From contig JAUXDH010000007.1 of the NCBI GenBank assembly GCA_030618545.1, positions 1 through 35,621 of the forward strand: a stretch of 35,621 nt of DNA. The letters run 5' to 3'. Both the position numbers and the translations under genes were made by a program. The notes under the pieces are model-generated. The model saw only the letters and a program-made list of their open reading frames with translations, was not told the origin of the DNA and made no database searches. Origin of the DNA: Chlorobiota bacterium. GTDB lineage: Bacteria > Bacteroidota > Bacteroidia > Bacteroidales > F082. How positions within the stretch are numbered: position 1 is the first letter of the stretch; every line of letters begins with the position of its first letter. Shown piece by piece: positions 20,863-33,756 of the stretch.

Positions 20863-21558
20863 CTATGGCGAAACCAGTTTAAACCCAACTCCATGCACAT
20901 TCATCAATTCTACATCAGGATCTTCTTTTAAATACTTCCTGAGTTTGGTGATGTACACATCCATCGAACGGGCATTGAAATAGCTGTCATCGTACCAGAT
21001 TTTATTCAAGGCGGCAGACCGGTCCAATACATTGTTCATGTTCTGGCAAAGCAGCCTCAGCAGGTCGGCTTCTTTTGAGGTGAGCTTTTGCTGGCTGTTG
21101 TCTGTTGTAAGCATCTGCCTGTTGTAATCGAAAACATATTTGCCAAACTTGAAAACATTATCGCTGGGTTTGTTCTTTTTACCTTCCTCGACCCTCCTCC
21201 TGATAGCCCTTATCCGCAACAATAATTCCTCCATACTGAATGGTTTGGTCAGGTAATCATCAGCGCCCAGTTCAAGACCCTGAATCCGATCCTCCTGCAT
21301 GGATTTAGCAGTGAGAAACAAAAACGGGACATGTGCATCCAGCTTCCTGACCTCTTTGGCCAACGTAAATCCATCCATTACAGGCATCATGATATCGAAG
21401 ATACAAAAGTCAAATTCATTTCTCTTGAAAGTCTCGAGGGCTTCTTTACCATCGATGCACAAAGTCGCGTTAAAACCTTTGGCTTCCAGGTATGCTTTTA
21501 ACACATTACCCAGGTTCTTGTCGTCTTCAGCAAGAAGTATTTTAGTTTTTGTCTGCAT
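20863..21558 (-). CDS. OmpR-family response regulator
   Basis: 231 aa. The receiver domain (~5-120) has the acidic pair ED/D12-D13, phospho-acceptor D55 in FDIMMPVMDGF, T in FLTAKSM and K in YLTKPFS. The winged-helix DNA-binding domain (~135-230) has LTSKEADLLRLL and the recognition helix region RSMDVYITKLRKYL. The histidine kinase gene ends 9 bp upstream, so they form one operon and a cognate pair. Overall likeness to Bacteroides RprY is noted but not tested. OmpR-type dimers bind direct repeats about 10-11 bp apart, and such an array occurs upstream of this operon (23032-23066). Confidence 0.95.
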   Translation of the reverse strand: MQTKTKILLAEDDKNLGNVLKAYLEAKGFNATLCIDGKEALETFKRNEFDFCIFDIMMPVMDGFTLAKEVRKLDAHVPFLFLTAKSMQEDRIQGLELGADDYLTKPFSMEELLLRIRAIRRRVEEGKKNKPSDNVFKFGKYVFDYNRQMLTTDNSQQKLTSKEADLLRLLCQNMNNVLDRSAALNKIWYDDSYFNARSMDVYITKLRKYLKEDPDVELMNVHGVGFKLVSP

Positions 21559-21567
21559 ATTCAGTAT

Positions 21568-22992
21568 TTAATTATTTGGCAAATCAATTGTAAATGTTGA
21601 TCCTTTTCCAGGTTCCGAATCCACAGAAACCATACCGTTATGAAGTTCTGTAGTGGCCTTCACATAATTCAGACCCAGTCCGAATCCTTTGAAGTCGTGT
21701 ACATTTCCGGTAGGGACCCTGTACAGTTTATCAAATATTTTTTTCTGCGATGATTTACCGATTCCAATTCCGTTGTCTTTAACCCTGATGAGCAATGATC
21801 CCTCATTATTTATTGTGTTAATCACCACATGAGGTCTGTTCAGGTTGTATTTAAGAGCGTTATCGATCAGGTTGATCATGATGTTTGTGAGATGAATACG
21901 GTCGCCAAGCAGTATGGACCTGGCAGCTTTCAGTTCAAGATCGATTTTTCCGCCTTTTTCTTCGGCGGCAATGTTCTTACTATTGGCTGCCTGCCGGATG
22001 ATCTCATGCATATCAACCTCACTGGTTTTGAGTTTTAATGTCCCTTTTTCCAGAACCGCGGTTTGCAGTATTTGCTCAGCCATCGTACCAAGGCGTGCAT
22101 TTTCCTCGTTTATTACTCCTACATAATTGTCGAACATAACATCAGATTCTTTGATGTCACTATCTTTCAATGCTTCACAGGCAAGAGCAATTGTTGATAT
22201 CGGGGTTTTGAATTCATGGGTCATGTTATTGATGAAATCGTTTTTCATTTCTGAAAGACGTTTCTGACGGTAAATAATAATGATGCTGAATGAGAAACTG
22301 AAAATGATGACCAGGAAAAGAAAAACGGAAACAAACAACAGTTTCCAAAGCTGTCGGACTATGAAGCTCTGTTCATTTGGAAAATATATAAGGAGCTTAT
22401 TTGGGTAGGCGTACAGACTGCCCAGCGGGGCAAGGTTGAAAAAGTAACCTTCTTCAAGCAATTCATTAGGATACTGTCCGGATTTCTGAACGATCATAGA
22501 ATTGGTTGCCGGACTGAAAATACCAAATTCATAAGCGGTGCGGATGTTTTTATCCCTTAGTTCGCGGGCGATGAGCGAATCTATTATCTTTTTGTTTGAA
22601 AAAATAAAACTAACCGATTCCTGATCGTAATAATTAAAAGTAAGCTGTTGTAATGTTTTGCTGGCAAGATTGGTGTTTCGGATAAAATGGTCGAAGTCGG
22701 AAGGGCTTTGGAGGTTTTCTATATTCATAAGCATAACCTCATTAATGGAGTCGAATGTCTCATAAATTGACTGGTTATGACTGTAAGCTTTTTTCTGTTT
22801 AATCACCCTTTCATGCAGCCTCATCCGGTCAAGTTCATACACCACCCGCAACATAGCCTGGTTTACGTCCCTGAAAAAAACAGCCTGTTTAACCTTCACG
22901 GCATCCCTTATCCAGTAAACCTGGATAATCATCAAACCAATGGTTGCTGAAGTGACAAGTGCAATAATAAGACCGGTTGTCCACTTATTCAT
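21568..22992 (-). CDS. Membrane sensor histidine kinase, partner of the OmpR regulator
   Basis: 474 aa from the ATG at 22992; the track start adds seven codons from a TTG. It has TM1 (~5-25, TGLIIALVTSATIGLMIIQV), a ~185-residue periplasmic sensor of no recognised family, TM2 (~213-238, VSVFLFLVIIFSFSF), an H-box NNMTHEFKTPIS with H259, and HATPase_c with the N box (NLIDNALKYN), G1 (VKDNGIGIG), F (FDKLYRV) and G2 (GFGLGLNY). All catalytic boxes are intact. Layout and motifs resemble the RprX type of Bacteroides. A -7 element TATTTTTG sits only 5 bp before the ATG (22997-23004), so the message may be leaderless. Confidence 0.95.
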   Translation of the reverse strand: MNKWTTGLIIALVTSATIGLMIIQVYWIRDAVKVKQAVFFRDVNQAMLRVVYELDRMRLHERVIKQKKAYSHNQSIYETFDSINEVMLMNIENLQSPSDFDHFIRNTNLASKTLQQLTFNYYDQESVSFIFSNKKIIDSLIARELRDKNIRTAYEFGIFSPATNSMIVQKSGQYPNELLEEGYFFNLAPLGSLYAYPNKLLIYFPNEQSFIVRQLWKLLFVSVFLFLVIIFSFSFSIIIIYRQKRLSEMKNDFINNMTHEFKTPISTIALACEALKDSDIKESDVMFDNYVGVINEENARLGTMAEQILQTAVLEKGTLKLKTSEVDMHEIIRQAANSKNIAAEEKGGKIDLELKAARSILLGDRIHLTNIMINLIDNALKYNLNRPHVVINTINNEGSLLIRVKDNGIGIGKSSQKKIFDKLYRVPTGNVHDFKGFGLGLNYVKATTELHNGMVSVDSEPGKGSTFTIDLPNN

Positions 22993-23031
22993 GAAACAAA
23001 AATATGCTATCAACTCATTGATAAACAGCTT

Positions 23032-23066
23032 TTAACTTTTATTAACACTTGTTAATCTTGGTTAAC
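23032..23066. promoter_or_regulatory. Four-box TTAAC array at exact 10-bp spacing (OmpR-type operator)
   Basis: TTAAC (23032), TTAAC (23042), TTAAT (23052) and TTAAC (23062) lie on one helical face with a 10-bp period. Direct repeats of this period are the standard target of OmpR/PhoB-family dimers. The array is 27 bp from the kinase gene -7 box (22997-23004) and 22 bp from the divergent -7 box at 23089, placing it at activator distance from both. Confidence 0.7.
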
Positions 23067-23088
23067 ATTTTATTATTTGTACAACATA

Positions 23089-23096
23089 TACTTTTG
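23089..23096 (+). promoter_or_regulatory. -7 element TACTTTTG of the candidate small RNA
   Basis: TACTTTTG fits TAnnTTTG. No TTTG/TTG box lies 17-23 bp upstream (the nearest are at 9 and 28 bp), so this promoter would need an activator. The TTAAC array ends 22 bp upstream. Confidence 0.5.
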
Positions 23097-23101
23097 TATC
23101 T

Positions 23102-23219
23102 GAATTTATAAGTAAAGAAAAAAGCCGGTTTGTAACTGTAATTTCCGGCCTAAAATTCTGCTTAATTTCATAATTGTTGGTTTTTGGTTAGCGGCCCCTC
23201 CCGGGGCCGCGTTTTTTTT
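23102..23219 (+). ncRNA. Candidate small RNA between histidine kinase gene and dnaG
   Basis: About 118 nt lie between a -7 element (23089-23096) and a strong intrinsic terminator (23191-23219). No protein gene on the plus strand ends here; the nearest upstream one stops at 20701. The segment contains no ATG and has stops in all frames. A 5-bp hairpin, GCCGG...CCGGC, precedes an unstructured U-rich stretch (TAATTGTTGGTTTTTGG), a plausible target-pairing region. dnaG has its own promoter downstream of the terminator, so an attenuator role is less likely. Start and function are inferred. Confidence 0.5.
23191..23219 (+). terminator. Rho-independent terminator with no upstream protein gene
   Basis: GCGGCCCC-TCCC-GGGGCCGC (8-bp perfect stem, 4-nt loop) is followed by G and eight T residues. 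The reverse strand lacks a T-tract, so it works only rightward. Confidence 0.92.
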
Positions 23220-23235: not shown

Positions 23236-23264
23236 TTGGATACCACTGTTTTAGTTTAACTTTG
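23236..23264 (+). promoter_or_regulatory. dnaG promoter (TTG-N18-TAACTTTG)
   Basis: TTG (23236-23238) and TAACTTTG (23257-23264), 18 bp apart, form a Bacteroidota-type promoter. It begins 17 bp past the preceding terminator and 19 bp separate its end from the dnaG ATG. Confidence 0.7.
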
Positions 23265-23282: not shown

Positions 23283-25220
23283 ATGATCAAGCCCGGAACC
23301 ATACAGCAAATCATAGAAACATCCCGTATTGAGGAAGTTGTAGGAGACTTTGTTACCTTGAAAAAGCGAGGGGCAAATTACCTGGGGTTGTGCCCTTTCC
23401 ATAATGAAAAGACACCATCATTTTCTGTTTCTCCAAGCAAGGGGATATACAAATGTTTTGGTTGTGGAAAAGCAGGTAACGCTATTGGCTTTATCATGGA
23501 ACATGAGCATTACTCCTATCCTGAAGCCTTAAAGTTAATAGCAAAGAAATATGGCATCGAGATTGAAGAAGAGGAGATGACTCCTGAATTGCAGCAGGAA
23601 CTGGATGAAAGGGAAAGCATGTTTGCTGCAAACAGTTTCGTATCAAAATATTTCAGCAAAAACCTTATTCATACCGAAGAAGGAAAATCAATTGGCCTTT
23701 CCTACCTTAAGGAAAGGGATTTCCTGGAATCGACTATCGAGAAGTTTCAGCTTGGTTATGCTATCGACAAATGGGAGGATTATTCCAGGCACGCACTCAG
23801 CAACGGATACAAGAAAGAAGTGCTGATTAGTACCGGCATGAGCATCGCTAAAGACACCAGGCTTATTGACAGGTTCAGGGGGAGGGTGATCTTCCCTATC
23901 CACAACCTTACCGGTAAGGTGATCGGTTTTGGCGGAAGGATACTGTCGTCAGAAAAATCCACCGCCAAATACATTAACTCCCCCGAGTCGGACATCTATA
24001 ATAAAAGCAAGACTCTGTATGGGATCTACTTTTCACGCGGCAGTATCGTGAAAAGCGACAATTGCTTCCTGGTAGAAGGATACACTGATGTGATCTCACT
24101 CCACCAGGCAGGGATTGAAAATGTGGTGGCCTCATCCGGAACTTCTTTAACGGTGGATCAGATCAAACTCATAAAAAGATTCACCCAAAACATCACTATA
24201 CTATTTGACGGTGACCCCGCCGGGTTGAAAGCCGCATTTCGTGGAATTGATCTTATTCTGGAAGAGGGCATGAATGTGAAAATCGTACTTTTCCCTGATG
24301 GCGAAGACCCCGATTCTTATGTCCGAAGCCATCGTTCGAGTGAGGTGGAATCGTTTATCACCAATAAAGCAGTTGATTTCATCAAATTCAAAACAAACCT
24401 TTTGCTGGATGAAACAGTGGGTGATCCTGCCGGGAAGGCAAAGCTGATCAAGGATATTGTGGAGACCATCTCATATATCCCGGATGGCATCAACAGGACA
24501 GTTTACATCAAGGAGTGCAGTGTAATGCTGGATGTGCCTGAACAGACGCTGATGAATGAGCTGAATAAAAGATTGCGTCAGCGATTCCGCAGAAGGACAC
24601 AGACTCCCGAAGCCATTATTCCTGAACCGGAGACAAAAAGAGAGATTTCGGATCAGTTAAAAATCGACCCACTTGATATAGCTGCACATGAAGAACACCT
24701 TATTCGGGTGCTGCTGTTGTATGGCAACCTGACAATCAAACTCAAAGATCCCAATGGAGAAATTGATTGGGAAGGGCCGGTTTCAGAATATATAATCAAT
24801 GACCTGGAGCATGAGCAGATCACCTTTGAAAATGACATTTTCAACGAGATCCTGGCCGAATATATAGCAGCGAAAGAAAAAGGCCTTGAAGTGGATGAGC
24901 TATACTTTATCAATCATACAAGGACAAGCCTGGCTACAACTACCATCGAACTCATTGCCAGTCAGCACAACCTCAGTGAGAACTGGAAGAGCAACAAAAT
25001 ATATGTAAAAACAGAGCAGGATCAATTGAGCAACCTCACTATTGCTTCAGTGTTATCCCTGAAATCCAGGCTTATTGGAAAACAATTAAAGCACTTGGTA
25101 GAGGATATGAAAGTGACCGAGGATGACGGACAGATATTCATCTTGCAACAGCAGTTTTTCGAGTTGAAAAGTATCGCCAACGAAATCGACGACGTACTCA
25201 GTCGGACTTTTAATTATTAG
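23283..25220 (+). CDS. dnaG: DNA primase DnaG
   Basis: 645 aa. An N-terminal CHC2 zinc finger (C37, H40, C58, C61: LCPFHNEKTPSF ... YKCFGCGKAG) is followed by the RNA-polymerase fold with FRGRVIFPIHN and GFGGRIL, and the Toprim core (LVEGYTDVISLHQAGIENVV, SSGTSLT, ILFDGDPAG). A C-terminal helicase-binding region (~450-645) has the variable sequence normal for the family. It makes RNA primers on the lagging strand with the replicative helicase. It has its own promoter and is not in the rpsU-dnaG-rpoD arrangement known from enterobacteria. Length and motifs are complete. Confidence 0.97.
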   Translation: MIKPGTIQQIIETSRIEEVVGDFVTLKKRGANYLGLCPFHNEKTPSFSVSPSKGIYKCFGCGKAGNAIGFIMEHEHYSYPEALKLIAKKYGIEIEEEEMTPELQQELDERESMFAANSFVSKYFSKNLIHTEEGKSIGLSYLKERDFLESTIEKFQLGYAIDKWEDYSRHALSNGYKKEVLISTGMSIAKDTRLIDRFRGRVIFPIHNLTGKVIGFGGRILSSEKSTAKYINSPESDIYNKSKTLYGIYFSRGSIVKSDNCFLVEGYTDVISLHQAGIENVVASSGTSLTVDQIKLIKRFTQNITILFDGDPAGLKAAFRGIDLILEEGMNVKIVLFPDGEDPDSYVRSHRSSEVESFITNKAVDFIKFKTNLLLDETVGDPAGKAKLIKDIVETISYIPDGINRTVYIKECSVMLDVPEQTLMNELNKRLRQRFRRRTQTPEAIIPEPETKREISDQLKIDPLDIAAHEEHLIRVLLLYGNLTIKLKDPNGEIDWEGPVSEYIINDLEHEQITFENDIFNEILAEYIAAKEKGLEVDELYFINHTRTSLATTTIELIASQHNLSENWKSNKIYVKTEQDQLSNLTIASVLSLKSRLIGKQLKHLVEDMKVTEDDGQIFILQQQFFELKSIANEIDDVLSRTFNY

Positions 25221-32910: not shown

Positions 32911-33756
32911 ATGAGTAAGAAAATAGTAGTCGGCATCGATTTTTCAGAATGTTCAATTAACGGATTTGAGCACGCTATTACCATAGCGCAGAAAGCCAAA
33001 GCAGCTATCACGATGGTTTGGGTAAACCATCTCGATTATTCCAAAGAGATTTTCTCTGTTGAGCCAAAACAATTAACCGCGGAAGTTGCCACCAGGTTCG
33101 AGGATCTCGTTGCATCCCATAAGGATAAATTGTGGGGACAACCCCTCAACTATGTGATACGAAAGGGAAAGGTTTACAAAGAAATATGTGCAGTAGCCGA
33201 GGAGGAGAATGCATTTCTAATCGTAATTGGCACCCATGGTTCATCCGGATTTGAAGAATTCTGGATTGGAAGCAATGCGAACAGAATGGTTTCGGCCTGC
33301 CGTAAACCCATCATTACCATAAGGGGTGGAATTGATGTGGGAAAAGATTTAAAAACCATCGTTATGCCATTTGACAGCACAAAAGTTACCCGTCAGAAAT
33401 TACCGATGACGGCGCTTCTTGCCAGTTATTTTGATTCAGAAGTTCATGTGCTTGGAATGTTCACATCAAAACTTGATGACCTGAGGTACCGTATTCGCAC
33501 CTATGTTGCTCAGGCCGAAGATTATTTTAAGGAAAACAATGTGAGGTTTAAAGTTGTGTTTCTTGAAGTTGATAACATCACCGAGGCAACCTTAGAATAT
33601 GCGGATAAAGTGGATGCCAACCTGATCTCTATTATGACCGAACAGGAAACCACCACTTCCAATCTATGGTTGGGACCCTTTGCAGCCCAGATGGTAAATC
33701 ATGCCGGAATTCCGGTGATGAGCATCCATCCCGACAGATACGGGTTTGTTCCGTAG
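32911..33756 (+). CDS. Tandem universal stress protein (UspA x2), second copy
   Basis: 281 aa. Same two-domain plan as the protein at 31622, clearly a paralogue: MSKKIVVGIDFSECSINGFE, GTHGSSGFEEFWIGSNANRM and PIITIRGG in the first domain (ATP-loop pattern kept), and TEQETTTSNLWLGPFAAQMV with GIPVMSIHPDRYG in the second (loop degenerate). Divergence between the copies is large, so the duplication is old. It follows the SPOR gene by 10 bp. No terminator hairpin with a T-tract is visible directly after the stop. Confidence 0.93.
   Translation: MSKKIVVGIDFSECSINGFEHAITIAQKAKAAITMVWVNHLDYSKEIFSVEPKQLTAEVATRFEDLVASHKDKLWGQPLNYVIRKGKVYKEICAVAEEENAFLIVIGTHGSSGFEEFWIGSNANRMVSACRKPIITIRGGIDVGKDLKTIVMPFDSTKVTRQKLPMTALLASYFDSEVHVLGMFTSKLDDLRYRIRTYVAQAEDYFKENNVRFKVVFLEVDNITEATLEYADKVDANLISIMTEQETTTSNLWLGPFAAQMVNHAGIPVMSIHPDRYGFVP

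Follow-up and report, generated by a model that had tools for sequence, protein, structure and literature searches.

A predicted small RNA gene divergent from an RprXY-like two-component system in Bacteroidales has a conserved core complementary to translation start regions

What lies between the genes for a sensor kinase and the primase DnaG, where two promoters face away from a shared array of operator boxes? The window analysed here, a stretch of 35,621 nucleotides, is contig C131 of the source genome G000, an uncultured Bacteroidales assembly. Its kinase-dnaG gap of 290 bp holds four boxes, two outward-facing -7 elements, a stretch free of open reading frames (ORFs) and a strong terminator. 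An earlier note on this DNA had suggested the layout of a small RNA (sRNA) linked to the neighbouring response regulator, which is supported by the conserved operator, the promoter geometry, an unpaired core, the terminator and the divergent kinase gene. The main clue to function, a core antisense to start codons, is absent from that note.

The two-component genes are located on the minus strand. The regulator gene (20866-21558) encodes a receiver and a winged-helix output domain, as in OmpR/PhoB response regulators (Pfam Response_reg, 5e-29; Trans_reg_C, 2e-16), and it adjoins its cognate kinase gene, as in RprXY. The best NCBIfam family for the regulator was NF051850 RprY, with 327.6 bits against a cut-off of 370 and 186 for the next family. 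The system thus resembles RprXY of B. fragilis and RprY of Porphyromonas gingivalis in its top family, but differs in that the regulator scores below the RprY family cut-off. The kinase gene (21571-22992; Pfam HisKA and HATPase_c), divergent from the sRNA gene, encodes an RprX-like membrane sensor histidine kinase with its ATG at 22992-22990, and an orthologue is in place at strong sRNA loci. The -7 element of the kinase operon, TATTTTTG (23004-22997, minus strand), is kept in relatives and ends 4 nt upstream of this ATG, so the kinase mRNA is predicted to be leaderless or nearly so.

The four-box array between outward promoters, already described in the earlier note, is present as a shared operator (23032-23066) with TTAAC at 23032, TTAAC at 23042, TTAAT at 23052 and TTAAC at 23062, each exactly 10 bp from the next. 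Tandem half-sites at 10 bp spacing are used by OmpR-family regulators, which fits these boxes. On the plus strand, the -7 element TACTTTTG (23089-23096) indeed lacks a -33 box, with no TTTG at that position in the window sequence. The sRNA gene that would follow (23102-23219, plus strand; about 117 nt) has a 5ʹ end estimated from the -7 element, and its description as ORF-less holds, since no ATG-started ORF is found on the plus strand in 23102-23218. The unit carries a 5ʹ hairpin GCCGG...CCGGC (23124-23149), which in relatives has other stem sequences at the same place, followed by a near-invariant unpaired core, or seed, TTCTGCTTAATTTCATAATTGTTGGTTTTTGG (23156-23187), which is supported by alignment, start-codon matches and a dip in pairing energy and contains CAT, an anti-AUG, at 23169-23171. 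It ends in an intrinsic terminator (23191-23219), where the GC hairpin with T8 noted before was confirmed as an all-GC stem of 8 bp (23191-23198/23203-23210) followed by T8; relatives have a hairpin with differing stems. A promoter had also been placed before dnaG, and a -7-like element, TAACTTTG, recognized from its sequence alone, is located at 23257-23264 on the plus strand. The dnaG gene itself (23283-25220, plus strand; Pfam; ATG at 23283) is the downstream neighbour and stands outside the system. Just past it, a long terminator-like hairpin of 15 pairs is found on the opposite, minus strand (25288-25255).

Promoter- and terminator-like sites in the window alone were no commoner than in shuffled sequences, so the evidence from a single sequence is weak and conservation decides. 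The earlier note had proposed looking for the segment in relatives, and a DNA search of 41 genomes recovered it in the same genus and family at 69-76% identity over about 200-230 bp, ending at the terminator (E down to 4e-37). In the oriented alignment, the boxes, the -7 element and a 30-nt core were near-invariant. The 5ʹ stem and the terminator stem varied in sequence, yet folded into hairpins in most copies, and the core was unpaired in most predicted folds. The distance from the start of the last box to the -7 element was exactly 27 nt in all 29 full arrays, which places regulator-type sites at a fixed distance, of an activating kind, from the promoter; the box-to-box spacing was 10 bp in the same 29. 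TTAAC arrays with at most one mismatch were almost confined to the sRNA locus in each genome. The terminator covariation was only slightly above that of shuffled alignments because the stems align poorly, and poor alignment of the terminators also explains why no pairs emerged from the first consensus folding.

A covariance model of the core and terminator matched 83 of the 119 family genomes at E<=0.05, with all 16 sampled genera represented, and the kinase gene was divergent upstream in every strong match not cut by a contig end. When 20 weaker matches were fetched, about half proved to be a second subtype at the kinase locus, a few came from genus g14, where the adjacent regulator was diverged or was not detected, and others were unrelated. 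One assembly (G004) carried two sRNA-kinase loci, on contigs C148 and C175, indicating either a duplication or mixed strains. Taken by computation, this is a conserved gene with a fixed promoter geometry and a kinase linkage; as judged from sequence and conservation, it is a discrete non-coding gene with its own promoter and terminator. The comparative evidence indicates that the segment is a real sRNA gene, which would be transcribed from the plus-strand -7 element.

Two other readings of the unit bear on its neighbours and its coding capacity. As dnaG is the downstream gene here and in roughly two of every three relatives, the segment could be a dnaG 5ʹ leader or attenuator with a conditional terminator. 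However, synteny revealed no fixed linkage: dnaG was not the next gene in about a third of relatives, which argues that the sRNA is not a dnaG leader, and where dnaG was absent or 1.5-2.9 kb off (L130, L138, and L146) the RNA and terminator were intact. Moreover, the conserved part is the core rather than an anti-terminator, and dnaG has its own -7-like element, which makes a leader very improbable. A small protein on the plus strand, or a mini-ORF started by the ATG of the core on the minus strand, which reads ATGAAA there, is hardly credible, as the plus strand has no ATG ORF, the minus-strand frames are unconserved and 2-37 codons long, many of them Met-Lys-stop, and the T-run of the terminator exists on the plus strand only.

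To what extent does the RNA occur beyond the family? The second subtype has the core TTTCATAAATTTTGGTTTTTGGTT; CAU and GGUUUUUGG are common to both subtypes. A covariance model for subtype 2, made from the RNA alone without the window copy and including L102 from family f47, was run over 393 genomes of the order, where it matched 49 genomes at E<=0.01 and found the window RNA again (E 0.0024). Among its best 30 loci, 20 (window included) had a divergent upstream kinase, usually with TTAAC boxes, and two more adjoined a related regulator; at E<2.5e-4, the kinase or a related regulator was adjacent at nearly all fetched loci. Copies beside the kinase and TTAAC boxes were found in eight further families (f47, f148, f151, f157, f172, f174, f178, and f188), and RNA-like units upstream of the kinase in other families (L104, L107, L112, L115, L120, L428, and L439). 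No RNA-like unit was found upstream of the kinase in some families (L421 and others).

Several loci depart from this layout. In some other Bacteroidales families (L119, L122, and L440), a small secreted-protein gene (MKK...) divergent from rprX replaces the sRNA, a different output under a similar operator. The copies in genus g14 (L353-L355, L391-L392, and L394) belong to subtype 2, and in them the core was strongly conserved and the TTAAC array degraded; the neighbouring regulator was about 45-51% identical, or the kinase or regulator was undetected. In other orders of the class, 394 genomes gave 7 weak matches, with about 4 expected by chance and none beside the kinase, and no convincing copy was found outside the order. 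One locus of another order (L316, in G379) carried an sRNA-like unit with the core TTTTCATAAAAGTTGGTTTAG and a terminator, but not beside this kinase, which raises the possibility that the phylum has more anti-start sRNAs.

TTAAC boxes in families lacking the RNA (L119, L122, and L440, with the secreted-protein gene next) would suit the view that the segment is only rprXY regulatory DNA, an operator with a barrier terminator and no functional RNA. Against this, conservation is highest past the promoter, in the core, which there is no reason to keep as DNA, and the 5ʹ stem and terminator differ in sequence with the same shape; we regard this view as quite improbable.

If the unit is an sRNA gene, what would its RNA recognize? 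The unpaired core, TTTCATAATTGTTGGTTTTTG, is near-invariant and runs antisense to a translation start of the Bacteroidota type: its reverse complement, CAAAAACCAACAATTATGAAA, is a typical A-rich start region of the phylum. An exact scan of about 85,000 species gave 40 matches to the core, 30 of which were sRNA loci (29 with a divergent upstream kinase and one at a contig edge). The 10 matches elsewhere, in Flavobacteriia, Chitinophagaceae, Prolixibacteraceae and others, all sit opposite the ATGAAA start codon of an ORF of 66-778 aa. For 350 genes of the relative G016, the pairing energy of the core dipped at the start codon (-9.5, compared with about -8.1 to each side of it), and shuffled cores dipped less. 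The mean over about 930 start regions was -10.0 kcal/mol for the core vs -9.2 (sd 0.33) for shuffled cores. A general start-codon complementarity is therefore a computed property of the core. The genome-wide excess of very strong start-region sites was modest and inside the shuffled range, so few targets are individually certain, and complementarity to start codons is claimed for the seed rather than as a proven target list. When whole sRNAs of other lineages were scored, the anti-start signal reached z -2.6 to -3.8 for L015, L054, L102, and L107; L104 and L105 lacked it, and it was weak for L108 and for the whole window RNA.

The small number of strong, conserved individual targets would also be expected of a real, regulator-controlled RNA that mainly binds a protein, perhaps RbpB or another RRM protein of Bacteroidota, or acts as a decoy, with the core as the protein site. 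The core is U/G-rich and unpaired, and binding to RbpB is described for the FopS sRNAs of B. theta (PMC11697453). However, the core holds an anti-AUG context, its exact matches elsewhere all fall at start codons, and CAU plus GGUUUUUGG is retained in both subtypes, and on balance we consider a mainly protein-binding RNA unlikely.

Returning to an sRNA that pairs with start regions, the best conserved candidate target is predicted to be a UspA-family gene in the window (32911-33756, plus strand), with pairing at its start codon. It ranked 6th of about 160 genes in the examined part of its own genome and 4th of about 930 in that of G016, and it was chosen because of this high rank. Across 24 genomes, the mean pairing energy of its start region was -17.7 kcal/mol, which was reached by none of 200 shuffled cores. 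In the window, the upstream SPOR gene extends with its 3ʹ end into the pairing site, which could thus be conserved in part because it is coding.

Other candidates were rejected. Action in cis on rprX or dnaG found no support, as the pairing of their start regions did not exceed that of shuffled cores or fell inside the shuffled range. Pairing with nrfA was very strong in only one of nine genomes, and a wobble-pattern scan for full-length targets gave few sites, which were not orthologous between genomes. A sponge RNA upstream of carA was discarded because relatives keep the element without the core complement, except partially in one. This element (L034, 1474-1555, minus strand; G000:C88) has a 5ʹ hairpin, an unpaired stretch and a GACGGC...GCCGTC terminator, with a fold z of -5.0; in G000, 17 nt of it are perfectly complementary to the sRNA core. 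Most of 20 relatives likewise have a GACGGY-type hairpin with a T-run before carA, and the element is probably an undescribed carA leader or attenuator.

How, then, might the locus work? We consider it rather probable that the RprY-like regulator activates the sRNA, which in turn represses translation by start-codon pairing. The adjacent regulator would bind the four-box array between the rprXY operon and the sRNA gene and activate the sRNA promoter; the lack of a -33 box, the constant 27-nt distance and the divergent arrangement of the genes all suggest activation. Since the two -7 elements are about equally far from the array, autoregulation of rprXY is probable as well, and this fits the finding that RprY of P. 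gingivalis binds its own promoter (PMC3646045). The RNA of about 117 nt would end at its own terminator and expose the unpaired core, an anti-AUG CAU flanked by U/G-rich sequence, which could base-pair with A-rich initiation regions of the ACCAAAAACC..ATGAAA type and block ribosome loading. As the best-conserved part of the RNA complements a typical start-codon region of these bacteria, the sRNA, whose gene adjoins the sensor gene in many uncultured Bacteroidales, probably lets the sensor switch off the translation of other genes, among which the UspA-family gene is a putative target. More speculatively, and with considerable doubt on our part, the order-wide sRNA might be a broad translation brake by which one stress-sensing two-component system damps many mRNAs rather than few; envelope and secreted proteins would be especially hit, the core being antisense to the common A-rich start region of the phylum.

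If true, this would tie the widespread, poorly understood RprXY system to post-transcriptional control in Bacteroidota, where targets are known for just a few sRNAs. It would also suggest a targeting rule for mRNAs without a Shine-Dalgarno sequence, namely pairing with the A-rich start region itself, and a single regulator and operator together with a 20-nt seed would suffice to test the prediction. The earlier statement that no such case was known for this family in Bacteroidota stands: so far as we found, a regulator-driven sRNA of this kind is undescribed in the phylum, and none linked to RprY appears in the open-access papers found. In Rfam 15, which may or may not include FopS, no family matched at the gathering score, and the best matches below it were unrelated.

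We class the predicted gene as a new sRNA family of a known kind, the regulator-driven trans-acting sRNAs. In Proteobacteria, response regulators drive such RNAs, as OmpR does OmrA/OmrB and as in CpxR- and PhoP-controlled sRNAs, and Vibrio Qrr1 is divergent from luxOU. The window sRNA would share with these its control by a regulator and its action in trans, and with Qrr1 also the divergent position beside its regulator; it differs in having no sequence relation to them and a promoter of the Bacteroidota -7 type, and there is no evidence for Hfq. Within Bacteroidota, FopS/GibS and BatR of Bacteroides thetaiotaomicron are trans-acting sRNAs with an unpaired seed for start-codon regions, FopS and BatR repress at start codons, and FopS likewise has a terminal hairpin (PMC11697453, PMC10861873). 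No adjacent regulator is reported for FopS, which forms a family of 14 copies, whereas the window sRNA is usually present in one copy beside rprX and a TTAAC array. The putative sRNA would thus be like FopS and BatR in the way it meets mRNAs and like the regulator-driven sRNAs of Proteobacteria in the way it is switched on, but need not be a member of either group.
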